A DNA stretch of 31,322 nt from a virus. Each line of letters begins with the position of its first letter. Positions within the stretch are counted from its first letter, which is position 1. Below the pieces are notes generated by a model. It ran no database searches, had not been told where the DNA came from, and was given only the letters and a program-made list of their open reading frames with translations. Location: IMG/VR virus record IMGVR_UViG_3300017710_000032, positions 1 through 31,322 of that record; one strand, written 5' to 3'. The position numbers and the translations under genes are program-made. Of the stretch, positions 2,296 through 27,826 are shown in pieces.

Positions 2296-2327
2296 CCGCC
2301 GAAGGCGGCAGATCTCGCCGTAGGCGA
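2296..2327. repeat. Two GC-rich triloop hairpins (CCGCC-GAA-GGCGG; TCGCC-GTA-GGCGA)
   Basis: Two adjacent perfect 5-bp inverted repeats with 3-nt loops, at 2296-2308 and 2315-2327. Both belong to the same family as three longer hairpins at 3044-3152, all built around CGCC-(GAA/GTA/GTCA)-GGCG. The C(GAA)G closure is the one known to give unusually stable DNA mini-hairpins. Confidence 0.7.
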
Positions 2328-2329
2328 CG

Positions 2330-2419
2330 GTCGTAACCGCTCGGGTTACGGGCGTAGTAAGTACTTACTAACCTAAAGTAAGTACTTACTTACGTATAAA
2401 AGTCGTAACCGCTCGGGTT
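2330..2419. repeat. 18-bp direct repeat with hairpin potential
   Basis: The 18-mer GTCGTAACCGCTCGGGTT occurs at 2330-2347 and 2402-2419. The first copy continues into a perfect 7-bp stem (CGTAACC/GGTTACG around GCTCG, 2332-2350); the second keeps only the inner AACC/GGTT pairing. The copies flank the two palindromes at 2355-2391, giving a symmetric array. Confidence 0.7.
2355..2391. repeat. Pair of 16-bp perfect palindromes around AGTAAGTACTTACT
   Basis: The perfect palindrome AGTAAGTACTTACT occurs twice (2356-2369 and 2377-2390), each extended by one matching base pair on each side, with 5 nt between the two 16-mers. Paired palindromes of this size in a non-coding region suggest binding sites for a dimeric protein or an origin-type iteron pair; function is inferred only. 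Confidence 0.7.
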
Positions 2420-2555
2420 TAAAGGGCGTTAAAATTAGTACGTTTATTTTAGTATATAACGGTTATAAGCCTTTATATTTAGTATAATTACCTTAGTTAT
2501 TAAATAAAGGGCGTTTTTTAACTACTTTTTTAACTAGCCCTAAAGGTAAAATAAT

Positions 2556-2870
2556 ATGACTAAAACTAATACTAAAAAAGCTACTACTAGCGTTACTACT
2601 AACGTTACTAGTAATACGGTTATTACTAAAGATAATATAGGTACTATTAACCCTATATTAACTTTTAATAATAAAGGGCGTTTAGCTAACGCTAATAGTA
2701 AAAGGGCTAATAGCGTTAACGGTAAAACCTATAAAGACGCGTTAGCGTTTTACGGTAGCGTTAAAGCGTTAAACCCTAATAACCCTAAGTTAAAACCGTT
2801 AAGGGCTTTAACTTACGATATATTTAAAGTTAAAAGCCTAAGCGTACCTAAAGGCTATACGCTAGGCTAA
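2556..2870 (+). CDS. Small Lys/Thr-rich phage protein, paralogue family, unusual composition (104 aa)
   Basis: One of only two supported longer genes on the plus strand. AAAGG lies 9 nt before the ATG and a strong terminator follows, so it is a single-gene unit. The N-terminus is rich in Thr, Asn and Lys (MTKTNTKKATTSV). The C-terminal half matches two other small proteins here: SVNGKTYKDALAFY, then LTYDIFKVKSL. No Cys, His, Gln, Trp or Glu and no internal Met occur, because the DNA contains no CA and only one TG. That composition differs sharply from its neighbours. Function unknown; an abundant nucleic-acid-binding protein is one guess. Confidence 0.7.
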   Translation: MTKTNTKKATTSVTTNVTSNTVITKDNIGTINPILTFNNKGRLANANSKRANSVNGKTYKDALAFYGSVKALNPNNPKLKPLRALTYDIFKVKSLSVPKGYTLG

Positions 2871-2881
2871 TAACCTAACCT

Positions 2882-2910
2882 AAAGGGCTAGTTTAACTAG
2901 CCCTTTTTTT
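2882..2910 (+). terminator. Rho-independent terminator after the 2556-2870 gene
   Basis: Perfect 7-bp stem GGGCTAG (2885-2891) / CTAGCCC (2897-2903) with loop TTTAA and a following run of seven T. Three A before the stem pair with the T-run, so it could work in both directions. Confidence 0.85.
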
Positions 2911-3002
2911 ACGCCTAAAATAAATTTTAAGATTTTAATCATATATACAGGGATCGTGATCCTAGGGCGACTGACCTGCTTCCTGGAATCTGGGCTTCCC
3001 GA

Positions 3003-3039
3003 GATCTGTGAGGTCCTTGCTTCCTGGGATCTGTGAGGT
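3003..3039. repeat. 12-bp direct repeat GATCTGTGAGGT
   Basis: Identical copies at 3003-3014 and 3028-3039. They lie in a longer stretch of related units (2975-3125) containing GCTTCCTGG, GGCTCCTGG and GTTCCTGG, so the segment looks built from degenerate tandem pieces. No gene is seen here. Confidence 0.6.
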
Positions 3040-3043
3040 GTGT

Positions 3044-3152
3044 CCGTCGCCGTAGGCGACGGCTCCTGGATCTTGGTGCGTCGCCGTCAGGCGACGCTCC
3101 TGGTTCCTGGTGTCTGGTTCCTGTCTTCTGTTGTCGTCGCCGAAGGCGACGA
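3044..3152. repeat. Three GC-rich hairpins of the CGCC-loop-GGCG family
   Basis: Perfect 8-bp stems: CCGTCGCC/GGCGACGG with loop GTA (3044-3062), GCGTCGCC/GGCGACGC with loop GTCA (3078-3097), and TCGTCGCC/GGCGACGA with loop GAA (3134-3152). The cores match the two hairpins at 2296-2327, while the outer base pairs change on both arms together, as in REP-like palindromic elements. Confidence 0.75.
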
Positions 3153-3166
3153 TCGCGATCGCGATC
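3151..3166. repeat. 16-bp palindrome with three GATC sites
   Basis: GATCGCGATCGCGATC is a perfect palindrome carrying three GATC sites. It contains the octamer GCGATCGC, which is the cyanobacterial HIP1 element, but a single copy says nothing about the host. Confidence 0.6.
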
Positions 3167-3176
3167 TAATGGTCAG

Positions 3177-3206
3177 GAATAAAAAGAGGGGAGCCGAAGC
3201 TCCCCT
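3177..3206 (-). terminator. Rho-independent terminator of the 3212-3436 gene
   Basis: On the minus strand an 8-bp stem AGGGGAGC/GCTCCCCT closes a stable TTCG tetraloop and is followed by a T-rich tract (TTTTTATT). It begins a few bases past the stop codon of the leftward gene. Confidence 0.9.
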
Positions 3207-3211
3207 GACCG

Positions 3212-3436
3212 TCAGCCTAGCTTTAAGGACTTGATTTTATTCAAGTCGTATTTTAAAGCTCGCTCCTTTAAGCCGAGCGTCTTATAGTGCTCTATAGCCT
3301 GTTCGTAGGTCATACCTTGAACGGCTTTAGCTCGTTTGACGTTGTGCTCGGCGCGAGCTTTATTAGGGACGTAGGTCAACGTTTGAGCGTTGACTTTAGG
3401 AGCTACGGATTTAGTAGCCTTTTTAGTATTAGTCAT
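3212..3436 (-). CDS. Small Lys-rich phage protein, paralogue family (74 aa)
   Basis: A 74-aa basic protein starting MTNTKKATKSVAPKVN. The second half (RAKAVQGMTYEQAIEHY, then LKYDLNKIKSL) matches the proteins at 2556-2870 and 9600-9872, and more weakly the C-terminus of 14263-14814. AGGAGG is 5 nt before the ATG. It has its own promoter (3466-3494) and its own terminator (3177-3206), so it is an isolated single-gene unit convergent with its paralogue at 2556-2870. Base composition is ordinary, unlike that paralogue. Function unknown. Confidence 0.8.
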   Translation of the reverse strand: MTNTKKATKSVAPKVNAQTLTYVPNKARAEHNVKRAKAVQGMTYEQAIEHYKTLGLKERALKYDLNKIKSLKLG

Positions 3437-4722: not shown

Positions 4723-5556
4723 TCAGGTATGATAGTTAATATTATTACGACGCTCTCTTTCGTCAGGAGCGTACAACCGTCGGTACTTATTATTGATACG
4801 GTCCACGAACCTTAGTAAACTGAACTTTTTCTTACTAAAGTGAAACAAAGCATTCACGTCCTTAGGAAGACACGCACCACCGTACCCTCTTTTACGCCCA
4901 CCGTCACCTACCTTAGTATGACCCTCACCTATACGCTTATCACTAGTTACGGTATCTACTATTATTTGATAGTCGGCACCACAGCGATTAGCTAAGTCAT
5001 ACAGTTGATTAAAGAAGGTAACTTTGGTCGCTAGAAAAGCATTTGTTGCGTATTTAACTAGGCTCGCTTCTTGTTTAGTCATAACGACAAAGTCTTTATG
5101 TCGTAAGTTTGACTGCTCACGGTAGAGTTTCATAACTCCACTACAGGCTGCAGGTTCTCCACCCAGTATATGATATTCAGCGTTAATAAAATCTTCCTCA
5201 GCGTTAGCTTCCGTTAAGAACTCAGGGTTATAAACCACTCTAGAACTAGTGGGTATTAGACCAGGAGTAACGGTTGACTTAATAATAACGATGGCATCAG
5301 TATTACGCAGTATATCGTCTGTACATTTTTGTACGATACGTGCGTCTATTTCACCAGAGTCAAGCGAAGGAGTGGGTACACATACGAATACGAAATCAAT
5401 AAACGCATCAGATGCACGGTTTTTATCATAGAGTAGGCTAATGTCGTTGCCTAGTATGGGGTCCACGGACCAAACTCTACCTCTATAGGGATGGAAAGCA
5501 TTTGCCACTGCCTGCCCAACAAAGCCAAAACCTAATATGCCGATGTTATAACTCAT
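4723..5556 (-). CDS. UDP-glucose/GDP-mannose dehydrogenase-like protein (277 aa, short)
   Basis: Rossmann-fold nucleotide-sugar dehydrogenase, normally oxidising UDP-sugars to uronic acids with two NAD+. Seen: N-terminal dinucleotide motif GILGFGFVGQA, FVCVPTP, KSTVTPG, the substrate-loop motif NPEFLTEANA near residue 133, a central helical region, and the catalytic-Cys motif GYGGACLPKDV near residue 227. The protein ends shortly after this motif, so the C-terminal UDP-sugar-binding domain of the roughly 400-residue bacterial enzymes is missing. It starts in an ATGA overlap with the gene upstream. In a phage with a glycosyltransferase (20534-21331) it could help supply a sugar donor; that link is inference. 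Confidence 0.85.
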   Translation of the reverse strand: MSYNIGILGFGFVGQAVANAFHPYRGRVWSVDPILGNDISLLYDKNRASDAFIDFVFVCVPTPSLDSGEIDARIVQKCTDDILRNTDAIVIIKSTVTPGLIPTSSRVVYNPEFLTEANAEEDFINAEYHILGGEPAACSGVMKLYREQSNLRHKDFVVMTKQEASLVKYATNAFLATKVTFFNQLYDLANRCGADYQIIVDTVTSDKRIGEGHTKVGDGGRKRGYGGACLPKDVNALFHFSKKKFSLLRFVDRINNKYRRLYAPDERERRNNINYHT

Positions 5557-9599: not shown

Positions 9600-9872
9600 C
9601 TAAGCGATCTCAAGAGTTTTGACTTTTTCAATGTCATATCTGATACCACTCATGGTATACAACCCAGTAGCTATAGCTTCTTTGATTGTTTTACCACTGA
9701 CAGCTTTTACACGCTCATTATTGTGCTCGGCTGTTACTCGTTTCCCAGTCGCTTTTAATTTAGCGTCTGGGCTATATTTACCGAATTTAACTTTCGGCGT
9801 TGTTGTAGCAGTTTCAGTTTGAGTCTTAGCACTGCTTAGCATTGACTTTTTGGTAGCTGTTTTATTAGCCAT
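9600..9872 (-). CDS. Small Lys/Thr-rich phage protein, paralogue family (90 aa)
   Basis: The N-terminus is Lys/Thr/Ala-rich (MANKTATKKSMLSSAKT). The C-terminal half (RVKAVSGKTIKEAIATG, then IRYDIEKVKTLEIA) aligns with the proteins at 3212-3436 and 2556-2870 and with the last 40 residues of 14263-14814. AGGAG is well placed before the ATG. It has its own GATC-type promoter (9913-9941) and terminator (9543-9588), the same isolated single-gene arrangement as 3212-3436. Function unknown; high independent expression of a basic protein would fit DNA or RNA binding. Confidence 0.8.
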   Translation of the reverse strand: MANKTATKKSMLSSAKTQTETATTTPKVKFGKYSPDAKLKATGKRVTAEHNNERVKAVSGKTIKEAIATGLYTMSGIRYDIEKVKTLEIA

Positions 9873-19315: not shown

Positions 19316-20332
19316 TTACTTTCCTTTGTTACTTATAGATTTATTTAGCCAATTATAAGCAGCAGTACCCCAGTCACTAGCTAGGCAAGACTGTACTTCA
19401 ATTAACGCTTCATCATATTCTTCGCTCTTGTATAAATACCAAGCATCTTGTAATGGAACTGCCACCTCACTAAAGAAAGGGTCAGCAAAATCTACAGACG
19501 ACATAGGTGCACGGCATAAAAACCATGTTAAGTCTTGTTCCCAAGTCATGATATCTGTGCTAATAAGTGGGAACGAATTAATAGCTTTATTATCGTAGGG
19601 GTTTCTTAAACTCATTTGACTGTAAAAGTCAAAAGCATCTTCTGCCTCCATTTGATTATACATATCATAAAATAAATCTGTGTAAGCGTGTAGGCTATCG
19701 CTAACTTGGGTGTATGTGCCTATCTCTACACCTATACCGTATGCCATATATTCTTGAAGTATAGACATATGTACAACGTTAGCACCAAATGCTCCCCATA
19801 TAACATCATTAGACCTGTTACTAACGGTCATATCTAACTTACCTTCACGTACTTTAAAATAAATAGCTGTGTTACAAGGAACGTCTACACTTTCAGTGTT
19901 AAAGTCAACATACGGATCCCACATTTGAAGCACACATCTTCTGTCAGTAGGGTCATTACGTAACCTTTCTATAATTACGCCTAACTGATCACCACCAAAA
20001 TGCTCACGCCACCTAAAGCCATAAGAACCTTGTAGTGTTTCACCGTCATCACTAAACTGACTCATGCGTTTATTGTAATACTCTATATACTCTAGGTCAT
20101 TACAGCCACCTAACATCCATAAACTTTCTATTAAGTGGAAGAAGGGATTAGCATTACGTGCGTCTTCAAATAAAACTCTTTCTTTTGAATTACGATACAC
20201 TGTTGCTACAGGCTCAGGTACTTCTATAACTTCGCCAGCCCTACTAGGAAAAGTGTATTGTTTATTTTGACCAATAAGATCCATAGCTTTAACAAAGCCA
20301 TCGTTAACGTTTCTACAATTTAATACTATCAT
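19316..20332 (-). CDS. Thymidylate synthase / dUMP hydroxymethylase homologue (338 aa)
   Basis: Member of the thymidylate synthase/pyrimidine hydroxymethylase superfamily, acting on C5 of dUMP or dCMP with a folate. Seen: PFFHLIESLWMLGG, LQGSYGFRWR, the phosphate-binding DRRCVLQMWDP, the catalytic Cys in DVPCNTAIYF near residue 155, RSNDVIWGAFGANVVHM, and the SLHAYTDLF His/Tyr motif. The Asn after the RSxDV motif suggests uracil rather than cytosine as substrate. The His usually following the catalytic Cys is Asn here, so this is not a standard ThyA. Because it sits with base-modification genes, dUMP hydroxymethylation is plausible; plain dTMP synthesis is the alternative. Confidence 0.85.
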   Translation of the reverse strand: MIVLNCRNVNDGFVKAMDLIGQNKQYTFPSRAGEVIEVPEPVATVYRNSKERVLFEDARNANPFFHLIESLWMLGGCNDLEYIEYYNKRMSQFSDDGETLQGSYGFRWREHFGGDQLGVIIERLRNDPTDRRCVLQMWDPYVDFNTESVDVPCNTAIYFKVREGKLDMTVSNRSNDVIWGAFGANVVHMSILQEYMAYGIGVEIGTYTQVSDSLHAYTDLFYDMYNQMEAEDAFDFYSQMSLRNPYDNKAINSFPLISTDIMTWEQDLTWFLCRAPMSSVDFADPFFSEVAVPLQDAWYLYKSEEYDEALIEVQSCLASDWGTAAYNWLNKSISNKGK

Positions 20333-20550
20333 TGACTATCCTTGAATTTTAAAACAAAATCTACCATTTCTATTTTTTCTTGTATGGCAGCTAACTTTTC
20401 TATTAGCTTATCTACCTCTACTACAATATCTACGTGTTCTGGTATACTGGTAGGGTTATCAAGTAGTACACTTAGATTAACTGTTACAGAATCCCGTTTA
20501 CCTTTAAGTTCCGACTTATATCCATTTAGGATATCAGAATAATTCGCCAT
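20329..20550 (-). CDS. Small hypothetical protein (73 aa)
   Basis: Helical 73-aa protein (MANYSDILNGYKSELKGKRD; VDKLIEKLAAIQEKIEMVDF), probably a coiled coil. It is locked between the glycosyltransferase (17-nt overlap) and the thymidylate-synthase homologue (4-nt ATGA overlap), so it is co-translated with the base-modification genes. No known function. Confidence 0.7.
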   Translation of the reverse strand: MANYSDILNGYKSELKGKRDSVTVNLSVLLDNPTSIPEHVDIVVEVDKLIEKLAAIQEKIEMVDFVLKFKDSQ

Positions 20551-21331
20551 TTTGTGCTCCTAGTTTTAATGCTTTTTTCCATTGTATGTTGACGTCTTTA
20601 CGTATAACCGTGCCTTCTTTTCCTGCACCCCAAGCTGTCTTAGTTTCCCTTTCTACTACCCTAACCACATCAGGGTGATGAGATTTTAAAATTTCCGCAC
20701 CCTCTGACTGCATTTGAACATTACGCCATTCACTACAACCACCAGGAGCATTACTACTGCCATGACCTTGGGCGTAATAATAGCTGACCTTATTAGGTAA
20801 TCCTTTGCTTAATAATTGTAAATTCATATCAAAGTCACTCATAACTTTAGTTCTGAATAACTCAATACCTTTACCTTTAAACATATCAAGATTGTATGCT
20901 AGTACACGCATATACCTAGTAGTTTCAGCAGATAAGTGTTCAACGCGATTATTACCTTCCCTAGCACTTACGCCACAGTGGGCGTAGTCATCAAGCCATT
21001 TATCAAGTAACCCAAATAAAGCGTGAAACTCATCAGGCTCTAAGTATCTAAGGTGCCAGTCGTTAGTAGCTTTACGAATATAAAAACGTAAGTCATCGTC
21101 TAACATAACTATTTTACCACCACCTGCGTTTTCACAAATATACTTACGTTTACTTGCTATATCGTAGACAACGGACTCAGGACAAGCCATAATTTGACAA
21201 TCATATTTATCGTATAAATCTTTTTCATATTCATTGACAACTAACGTAACTTGTTTACGTAAGTCCTCAGGAAAATGGGACAAGGTCACTTGATCGTCAG
21301 CCCTGCCTCTGGTCGGAATAAATATTTTCAT
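20534..21331 (-). CDS. GT-A glycosyltransferase, TET-associated (TAGT)-like (265 aa)
   Basis: GT-A fold glycosyltransferase. It begins MKIFIPTRGRADDQV, carries the metal/donor-binding IVMLDDDLRF near residue 90, YAHCGVSAREGNNR near residue 130, VMSDFDMNLQLLSKGLPN near residue 185, and SNAPGGCSEWR. From memory these match the TAGT family, glycosyltransferases tied to phage DNA hydroxymethyl-pyrimidine modification. AGGAGG is 7 nt before the ATG, and it overlaps the HMUDK/AGPT-like gene (ATGA). The likely role is adding a sugar to a hydroxymethylated base in phage DNA; donor and base are unknown. Confidence 0.75.
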   Translation of the reverse strand: MKIFIPTRGRADDQVTLSHFPEDLRKQVTLVVNEYEKDLYDKYDCQIMACPESVVYDIASKRKYICENAGGGKIVMLDDDLRFYIRKATNDWHLRYLEPDEFHALFGLLDKWLDDYAHCGVSAREGNNRVEHLSAETTRYMRVLAYNLDMFKGKGIELFRTKVMSDFDMNLQLLSKGLPNKVSYYYAQGHGSSNAPGGCSEWRNVQMQSEGAEILKSHHPDVVRVVERETKTAWGAGKEGTVIRKDVNIQWKKALKLGAQNGELF

Positions 21332-22173
21332 AGGTTAACCTCCTCAGTCTTTGGTTTATATTTAGCACGTGGTCTACCTTGACCTAAACGCACCCTCTCG
21401 TATTTATCAAACTCACAAAGACAATGTTCTATGTCTCTCATTTCTAGAGGTTCCATATGTCCTTGTAAATAATTAGGTGAAAGGTCTAGTAATTCCTGCA
21501 TCTCAAAGTTAAGCCTATCTTTCTTAATGGTTTTATTTAACTCTCTATCTTTTATTCTGTTAAGCCCACGCTGTGCTCCAGGACCAGGATTAGCCCAAGT
21601 CATAATATCTTCAGCTTTATTCAAAAATTTAGTGTGGCGTAAATCAGTAACTACCTCATAAGCCATAAAACCACTAAACCCTGCTTTTTGTAAATAACCT
21701 TTCCAAGTTTCTTCTAGTGACCAAGTTATCATAGAGGGGTGGTGTTCGTATAACGGTGTGAGTATCTTATCTATAGTTTGCTCTATTTTTGTACCACCTA
21801 AAGTGCCAGTTAACATATACGCACCAGTATAGACCTTATCGCCTCTATCTTTTCTAGCTTGCATAATAGCTTTTACCTTTTCTGGTTCCCAAGTTTCAGG
21901 AAACCCTATTTCCTCTAAAGTATCTGGCCAATTTATTTGCCTAGCCACACCCATAGCAAAAGGTAGGTTTTTATGGTCAGCATAAGGTTCACGCCAGTTA
22001 ACTCTTATCCACTCAGTAACTCTATCTAACTCACGGTACACGTTACAAAAACTATACTCGGTAAGTATAGCGTCGCTAGTCCACGGATAAGCTACACCGT
22101 TCTGTCGGCGTAAGTATATGATATGACGTTCGTTTAAATAATTAAAAAACTTTTGTATATTTTCCTCTATCAC
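21328..22173 (-). CDS. Putative DNA base hypermodification protein (HMUDK helical / AGPT-Pplase family, 281 aa)
   Basis: Residues 14-55 contain ERHIIYLRRQNGVAYPWTSD, AILTEYSFCNVYRELDRVTE and WI, the hallmark of the helical domain of 5-hydroxymethyl-dU DNA kinases and alpha-glutamyl/putrescinyl-thymine pyrophosphorylase (AGPT-Pplase) proteins, which install hypermodified thymines in phage DNA. No P-loop is visible (only GTLGGTK), so the kinase half is absent or elsewhere. The start is set to GTG 22173, which forms a GTGA overlap with the previous stop and has GAGGAG 5 nt upstream. Which reaction this lone domain performs is unclear. Confidence 0.75.
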   Translation of the reverse strand: MIEENIQKFFNYLNERHIIYLRRQNGVAYPWTSDAILTEYSFCNVYRELDRVTEWIRVNWREPYADHKNLPFAMGVARQINWPDTLEEIGFPETWEPEKVKAIMQARKDRGDKVYTGAYMLTGTLGGTKIEQTIDKILTPLYEHHPSMITWSLEETWKGYLQKAGFSGFMAYEVVTDLRHTKFLNKAEDIMTWANPGPGAQRGLNRIKDRELNKTIKKDRLNFEMQELLDLSPNYLQGHMEPLEMRDIEHCLCEFDKYERVRLGQGRPRAKYKPKTEEVNL

Positions 22174-22679
22174 GCACACTCCTCAACTTGCCAACTAGTG
22201 TTCCACCAGTTAGGTTTAGGTCTAGTTTTATTCCAAGCAGCATAGTGCTTTTCATTAATTAAGTAGTTACGATACGCCACGACAGGGTCAGCGTTTTTGT
22301 ACTGATCAGGCATAGCTTGAGCTATAGGGGTAAGTCCTAAGCTAGGCATAGAGGCAGGTATGTACGATAAGGTACGCCTTAGTTTAGTATCACTAGCGTG
22401 CACCTTACCGTAGCGATACGTGTACTCGTCACATAAAGCTACAAAATGTTTATAAAGCCATTCATAGTTTTCTAAACTTTCCCTAGCCCATATAGTACAA
22501 GGGTGGTTTACGTATGCTGTTTTATAAATTTCTAACTGGTCACAATAGCTACTGTGAAAATAGTAGCGTTGAGTAGTGCAAAGCATTTGAGCTGATTCTA
22601 AAGGCATTTTAACTACAAGCTTGTCAGGTAAAGACTGAGCAGCAAGTACTGGGTCGTTATATGTATAAAATATATTCAT
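22170..22679 (-). CDS. Conserved phage protein of unknown function (169 aa)
   Basis: Sequence blocks KLVVKMPLESAQMLCTTQ, YVNHPCTIWARES, NYEWLYKHFVALCDEYTYRY and RPKPNWWNTSW. I recognise it as a protein widespread in marine phages, rich in His, Cys, Tyr and Trp at fixed places (KxxxE near the N-terminus, HPC, WLY, EYxxRY), which suggests an enzyme, but I cannot name the activity with certainty. It is the gene directly upstream of the hypermodification protein (GTGA overlap), so it may belong to the same pathway. Confidence 0.7.
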   Translation of the reverse strand: MNIFYTYNDPVLAAQSLPDKLVVKMPLESAQMLCTTQRYYFHSSYCDQLEIYKTAYVNHPCTIWARESLENYEWLYKHFVALCDEYTYRYGKVHASDTKLRRTLSYIPASMPSLGLTPIAQAMPDQYKNADPVVAYRNYLINEKHYAAWNKTRPKPNWWNTSWQVEECA

Positions 22680-27388: not shown

Positions 27389-27414
27389 CTTGTCTCTTTT
27401 TATCTTAAAATCAC

Positions 27415-27447
27415 GGCTACCTACTAATTAAGGGTAAGTAGATAGCC
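27415..27447. repeat. 10-bp inverted repeat (one wobble) between divergent units
   Basis: GGCTACCTAC (27415-27424) and GTAGATAGCC (27438-27447) with a 13-nt loop. It lies in the leader of the leftward block and just before the small rightward frame at 27465. Confidence 0.6.
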
Positions 27448-27464
27448 ATGAAAGGAGATTACAT

Positions 27465-27551
27465 ATGAATAACCTTAACACTAAGTTAAGCTACCCTATA
27501 AAAAATTATAAACCTAATCTACTAAAAAATAAAACCCTATGTGCTATATAG
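27465..27551 (+). CDS. Possible 28-aa leader peptide
   Basis: ATG at 27465 has AAAGGAG with 7-nt spacing, a near-ideal ribosome site. The frame encodes MNNLNTKLSYPIKNYKPN and ten more residues before TAG. A good ribosome site with such a short product ahead of a structured leader and the helicase gene suggests a leader peptide or a decayed gene. There is no protein family evidence. Confidence 0.35.
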   Translation: MNNLNTKLSYPIKNYKPNLLKNKTLCAI

Positions 27552-27641
27552 GTAAAAATAATTTATGTTTTAAAAATCCAAAAACATTTGTGTTTAGCTA
27601 ATAGCTGTAATAGAATTTTTTTAAACGCTTATTATATAAAG

Positions 27642-27682
27642 GCTAGTAGCGTATTGGCTGAACGTATTACGTCGCTATTAGC
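27642..27682 (+). ncRNA. Leader hairpin 1 of the SNF2 helicase gene (putative)
   Basis: GCTAGTAGCG (27642-27651) pairs with CGCTATTAGC (27673-27682): ten base pairs with one G-U, loop of 21 nt containing a smaller ACGT repeat. No T-run follows, so it is not a standard terminator. Confidence 0.45.
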
Positions 27683-27736
27683 ATAAAACATACAATAGGC
27701 TTTTAATTCATACTGAAGTAATTTATTATTACCTAT

Positions 27737-27808
27737 AAGTAAAGGTCGTAAGTCCTGGACAAATAGACTAGGCTACAACGGTTAAGTTACGGCTTAACAC
27801 CTTTACTT
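27737..27808 (+). ncRNA. Multi-branched leader structure before the SNF2 helicase gene (putative)
   Basis: A 10-bp perfect outer stem AAGTAAAGGT (27737-27746) / ACCTTTACTT (27799-27808) encloses a 6-bp hairpin GTTAAG/CTTAAC (27781-27798) that abuts the 3' outer strand, plus a 34-nt segment with further pairing (for example AGTC/GACT). The topology recalls an acceptor stem stacked on a T-arm, yet arm lengths do not fit a tRNA. It ends 18 nt before the GTG start. Confidence 0.5.
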
Positions 27809-27826
27809 CTTTAAGAGACTAAGATA

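Follow-up and report, generated by a model that had tools for sequence, protein, structure and literature searches.

The window (the whole stretch of DNA analysed, 31,322 nt, positions 1 to 31,322 of the IMG/VR virus record IMGVR_UViG_3300017710_000032) belongs to a marine clade of uncultured phages; we found no cultured phage of the clade, and one scan of genome contigs for its host gave no clear candidate. Near one end of the window lies a small gene, P0001, embedded with its possible control elements in DNA that is almost devoid of a single dinucleotide motif. We call this motif TS (5'-T[G/C]-3', counted on both strands) and its mirror ST. The features of this island, its flanks and the paralogues of its gene are as follows.

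2160-2310, no strand: TS-abundant flank with TCTG repeats and palindromes
2330-2347, plus strand: 18-bp direct repeat GTCGTAACCGCTCGGGTT, copy 1
2342-2931, no strand: core of the TS-free island (7 sites), from segmentation; the CA/TG-free extent is 2311-2940
2356-2369, no strand: operator-like palindrome AGTAAGTACTTACT, copy 1; exact matches lie beside an island or paralogue in several relatives
2377-2390, no strand: operator-like palindrome AGTAAGTACTTACT, copy 2
2402-2419, plus strand: 18-bp direct repeat GTCGTAACCGCTCGGGTT, copy 2, containing two of the few TC sites
2483-2488, plus strand: possible -10 box TATAAT, a consensus match only, kept in the copies
2542-2546, plus strand: possible ribosome-binding site AAAGG, lacking GA (the paralogue P0002 has AGGAGG)
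2556-2870, plus strand: island gene P0001, 104 aa, without C, E, H, Q, W or internal M; TS count equal to the protein's minimum
2882-2910, plus strand: intrinsic terminator with an 11-bp stem, 3-nt loop and U run (fold -15.7 kcal/mol, z = -4.0)
2941-3180, no strand: TS-rich flank with repeats GTCGCCGTAGGCGACGG and GATC
3212-3436, minus strand: paralogue P0002, 74 aa, 38 TS sites (minimum 14)
9600-9872, minus strand: third paralogue, 90 aa, ordinary composition, 60 TS sites (minimum 15)

The missing motif and the layout of the island

Between 2311 and 2940 there is no CA, 7 TC, 7 GA and one TG, the latter in the ATG at 2556-2558, giving a sum of 15, and the mirror steps are frequent (AC 46, GT 41, AG 40, CT 46); TA is in excess (odds 1.71) and AT is low. 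The lack of CA, and of any TG beyond the start codon, had been noticed in the original prediction, with which these counts agree. Because CA and GA read on the opposite strand are TG and TC, the four absences reduce to a single rule, by which TS is missing from both strands; the two rules originally described, one for CA/TG and one for TC/GA, thus concern real absences but are not separate. In 2000 mononucleotide shuffles of the segment the four dinucleotides summed to 140 on average and to 109 at the lowest, in keeping with the earlier view that neither codon bias nor chance is at work. The two longest CA/TG-free runs of the window (383 and 248 nt) both lie within this segment, and the third measures 65 nt. 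Likelihood-ratio segmentation delimits a core of 590 nt with a score of 102, against a best score of 14.6 among 73 relatives that lack HMUDK_hel (a gene described below; 1.02 Mb in all). On the shuffles and on the segmentation of these relatives we reject chance and composition, and the absence of TS is real. An assembly artefact is likewise rejected, as other metagenomes yielded one identical copy and several that have diverged.

Both AGGAGG and TTGACA contain TS sites and are avoided in the island, where the possible TATAAT and AAAGG are retained; a TTGACA -35 element is impossible in TS-free DNA for this reason. A sigma-70 scan of the island found no convincing promoter and did not pick up the TATAAT, and an Rfam search gave no match. 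The 14-bp palindrome AGTAAGTACTTACT occurs twice in the upstream half of the island, and it also adjoins members of the small-gene family in relatives (G007:40708, G010:10248, G015:38780 and G017:1257, 1996 and 2041), where it is likely to serve as a shared operator or binding site. The flanks at 2160-2310 and 2941-3180 consist of TS-dense, palindrome-rich repeats with their TS sites mostly on the plus strand. At 2025 stands AATTTTGCA, immediately upstream of the leftward gene that neighbours the island, as it does in most relatives (G006, G007, G011-G013, G015 and G017); this possible promoter element has TS sites.

Coding minimum and conservation in relatives

We took as the coding minimum the fewest TS sites that any synonymous coding of a given protein can reach, and in all six homologous island ORFs the observed number equals this minimum (5, 5, 6, 5, 5 and 6); random synonymous coding of the six would give about 46-48 sites. 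C, H, Q and W are wholly absent from the six proteins. A diverged island from other phages, available in two copies, has 5 TS sites in its ORF versus a minimum of 5. The paralogues in the window are unpurged. The island protein has no significant match in Pfam or PHROG, and its structural model (pLDDT 79.5) gave no significant fold match.

Homologous segments in other phages obey the same rule, as the original prediction had proposed to check: islands that differ at up to 113 of ~530 aligned positions keep it, and copies that differ at 110 of 534 aligned sites still conform, when 100 random substitutions would create about 58 TS sites. The changes between island copies are mainly transversions (47 transversions to 13 transitions in one comparison, 73 to 37 in another), with a ratio of at least about 2:1 in most diverged pairs. 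Less related phages also have islands, in G011 (5 sites, minimum 5), G016 (15, minimum 5) and G017 (8, minimum 4), whose proteins match the family profile when a small set is searched (E values from 6e-18 to 4e-11). G012 and G013 have islands too, and that of L018 is partly relaxed (19 sites, minimum 11); the G012 island frame matches the profile weakly (4e-4). That frame (G012:19542-19745, locus L233), like the one in G013, has no ATG, GTG or TTG start, and it reads AAG where the paralogue has ATG, so it could represent a non-canonical start or a pseudogene. One relative, IMGVR_UViG_3300030104_002855 (loci L002 and L007), has two different islands, one at each contig end, as would be seen if a circular or redundant genome carried them in tandem. 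An imported element with unusual rules, one of three candidates offered originally, is disfavoured, since islands encoding this gene family recur in related phages and stay TS-free as their sequences diverge.

Putative modification genes and TS depletion across the clade

Phage thymidine hypermodification targets the dinucleotide TS (PMC6449724, PMC7653180). The hypermodification-resistant sites in phages M6, ViI and phi W-14 share this motif (PMC6449724), and protection after 5hmdU-kinase treatment is limited to sites with TG or TC (PMC7653180). Our reading of the island in terms of TS modification preceded the search for HMUDK_hel and TAGT and the assignment of a hydroxymethylase; the thymidylate-synthase-like protein was already in the annotation before that reading, and its hydroxymethylase assignment came later. 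The relevant features of the window are these.

19316-20332, minus strand: thymidylate-synthase-like protein, candidate dUMP hydroxymethylase; 44% identity to M6 gp58, best PDB match CMP 5-hydroxymethylase
20534-21331, minus strand: TAGT glycosyltransferase (PF20691, E = 9e-19; phrog_842)
21328-22179, minus strand: HMUDK_hel (PF18723, E = 4e-46), homologue of M6 gp55, overlapping TAGT by 4 bp
27389-27826, no strand: divergent promoter region, partly TS-depleted (TS/ST 0.46)

The PF20691 score of TAGT is 68.6 bits versus a curated cut-off of 27.5. HMUDK_hel, which also occurs in G002, G007 and G010, has a predicted fold (pLDDT 92.7) with weak PDB matches, the best being a 5-phosphomethyl-dU glycinyltransferase and the base-flipping 8-oxoguanine DNA glycosylases. 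All relatives' contigs of at least 35 kb with the island gene or a paralogue have both HMUDK_hel and TAGT, and so do the diverged relatives with islands of the same small-protein family. Genes for MethyltransfD12 or N6_N4_Mtase proteins were found neither in the window nor in seven relatives.

The genes resemble the M6/ViI/phi W-14 pathway in the hydroxymethylase-like thymidylate synthase homologue, in HMUDK_hel and in the TS target, but the M6-type pathway has a P-loop kinase (PF18748), whereas in the clade none was detected and TAGT overlaps HMUDK_hel instead. No such kinase was found in nine TAGT-bearing contigs of the clade, and M6 gp54 has no match in the window, itself a genome fragment. 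The kinase was detected in YuA, FP1, RHph_I65 and others; TAGT has no match in the kinase-bearing phages YuA, FP1, Pam3, RHph_I65, SBSphiC and G014, and LuckyBarnes, a TAGT carrier, has no match to the kinase. With no PF18748 kinase detected in the clade, TS targeting would have to come from HMUDK_hel or TAGT. Since kinase and TAGT occur in separate sets of phages, glycosylated 5hmU is to be expected in the clade, with HMUDK_hel as the DNA-recognising partner, and HMUDK_hel plus TAGT without the kinase is possibly a kinase-free, sugar-adding branch of the pathway. A UDP-glucose dehydrogenase-like gene lies at 4723-5556, and the sugar donor for TAGT could be derived from its predicted product. 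A sugar on a hydroxymethylated pyrimidine would be shared with T4-type glucosylated hydroxymethylcytosine and with kinetoplastid base J, and the TAGT of the window matches the T4 glucosyltransferase PHROG; the difference is that hydroxymethyluracil in a TS context is the base predicted here.

Depletion of TS is not confined to the island. Across 40 HMUDK_hel loci the divergent promoter regions have a pooled TS/ST of 0.60 (0.40-0.83), against 1.11 (0.91-1.34) for the same regions in 38 relatives without HMUDK_hel, although the loci are interrelated and the counts therefore not independent; HMUDK_hel presence was settled for each locus by tblastn. Two GC-matched members of these 38, L188 and L190, have a divergent-region ratio of 1.05. 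Segmentation of 1.28 Mb, made up of the window and 79 HMUDK_hel loci, finds 36 TS-depleted segments versus 4 for the mirror motif, and many of the 36 sit in the divergent region upstream of an SNF2 helicase gene. The clade's coding DNA is mildly TS-poor, mostly across codon positions 2-3 (0.42 vs 0.88 in L190). The idea that TS-free islands are a general trait of HMUDK_hel phages is not supported: the kinase-type phages M6, YuA, FP1, Pam3, PaMx11 and RHph_I65 show little or no depletion, and the same holds for the TAGT phage LuckyBarnes and for HMUDK_hel loci in bacterial and archaeal genome records, which lie outside the marine clade. The pattern is thus confined to one clade, with a TS-free gene island and depleted promoters; M6 has no more than two tracts of 36-37 nt. 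These longest TS-free tracts of M6 (NC_007809, 3489-3525 and 29642-29677, loci L112 and L113) fall in its two largest annotated intergenic gaps.

Why a gene might be kept free of TS

We consider it probable that selection has cleared this gene unit of the TS sites that the phage itself would modify, so that host RNA polymerase has access to it. Modification pressure fits best among the candidates of the original prediction. The sequences themselves show the motif, how strictly it is avoided and how well this is conserved, its link with HMUDK_hel and TAGT, and the contrast with paralogues and flanks. What we infer concerns the chemistry in this phage, the roles of HMUDK_hel and TAGT, and early transcription as the reason for the purging. 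Thymine in the phage DNA would be replaced by 5-hydroxymethyluracil, and a bulky group, probably a sugar, would be added at T before G or C, with HMUDK_hel as the targeting protein and TAGT as the probable transferase. Selection would then strip TS from operator, promoter, ORF and terminator on both strands, at a cost: fewer codons and amino acids to choose from, and neither a standard -35 nor a standard Shine-Dalgarno motif. With its TS sites removed, the island would stay unmodified in the virion and in replicated DNA, and so be readable by host RNA polymerase at any time; most likely its gene would belong to those transcribed first when fully modified DNA enters the cell. The same reason may explain the partial purging of other key promoters.

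On a 5hmU template treated with 5hmdU-kinase, E. coli RNA polymerase output falls to 10% of the 5hmU level and 37% of that on natural DNA, and the product of the treatment is phosphorylated 5hmU (PMC6457204). According to work cited in PMC11550810, bacterial RNA polymerase usually fails to initiate at promoters whose major groove carries bulky groups. Templates with glucosylated 5hmC are reported to remain active in transcription, so that a sugar does not necessarily bring RNA polymerase to a halt. A further point against the transcription reading is that both strands are purged, which is more than a block on the template strand needs; that the whole ORF is cleared on both strands points to a part for elongation or duplex recognition as well, or to some other process that uses the region. 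Also against the explanation are the absence of a P-loop kinase match in the clade and the little or no depletion in the TAGT phage LuckyBarnes, in the kinase-type HMUDK_hel phages and in HMUDK_hel loci from elsewhere.

The purging of both strands would also suit an island spared TS modification as a replication origin, packaging site or other protein-binding region, in which the ORF is incidental, and so would the two 14-bp palindromes and 18-bp direct repeat in the upstream half and the relative with an island at each end of its contig. We think this unlikely, because a binding site needs no purged 315-nt ORF, yet an ORF of a conserved family is purged to its exact codon minimum, the depletion extends to the terminator, and diverged islands again encode the same protein family. 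Perhaps the clade simply has a compositional habit (codon usage, TA-rich regulatory words) that is independent of modification and linked to HMUDK_hel and TAGT by shared ancestry, as the limitation of the depletion to one clade and its absence from other HMUDK_hel phages might suggest; but the depletion is missing from GC-matched relatives that lack HMUDK_hel, composition cannot account for eight ORFs that sit exactly at the coding minimum, and the motif is the published modification target, all of which makes a mere habit distinctly improbable.

Read on the opposite strand, TS is SA (adenine after C or G), and the avoided motif could accordingly be the target of a Mom-like or broad m6A modification by phage or host. 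We regard this as very improbable, given that the window and seven relatives have no gene of either methyltransferase family searched for, and that thymidine pathway genes are present with TS as their documented motif. A context-dependent mutational process, with C changing to T at TC and CA, could have emptied the region of TS, and the TA excess, the low AT and the mildly TS-poor coding regions of the clade would be in line with it. This candidate of the original prediction now seems scarcely credible: TS-rich non-coding DNA lies tens of bases away on both sides, the paralogues in the same genome are unpurged and the copies differ mainly by transversions. Local selection accounts better for these facts.

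Selection against a short motif is familiar from restriction-site avoidance in phage genomes; here, however, the motif is just two bases long, is the phage's own modification target, and is almost totally avoided locally, in one gene unit. SPO1-type hydroxymethyluracil phages use promoters in a base-specific manner, and their middle promoters require modified T; transcription there too depends on the state of the modified T, but in the island the modifiable T is removed. The enzymes belong to known families, and we rate as new, judging by the sequence facts and a literature search that found no precedent for a TS-free gene unit, the existence of a gene unit free of the phage's own modification dinucleotide. 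Going further, we can only tentatively suggest, and with some doubt, that a modification-exempt gene is a new class of viral genetic element: in phages with glycosylated 5-hydroxymethyluracil at TS, targeted by HMUDK_hel and given its sugar by TAGT without a kinase, a small regulator gene, exempt from promoter to terminator, would be expressed first from fully modified DNA, and its product would redirect the host's RNA polymerase, or other machinery, towards the modified genome.

The island bears on how the first genes of heavily modified phage DNA are read by an unmodified host polymerase. HMUDK_hel with a glycosyltransferase points to a candidate kinase-free version of the thymidine pathway. 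A purged gene offers a sequence signature, down to the amino acids used, for predicting the modification motif in uncultured viruses, and the same signature could predict which genes must be read from modified DNA.
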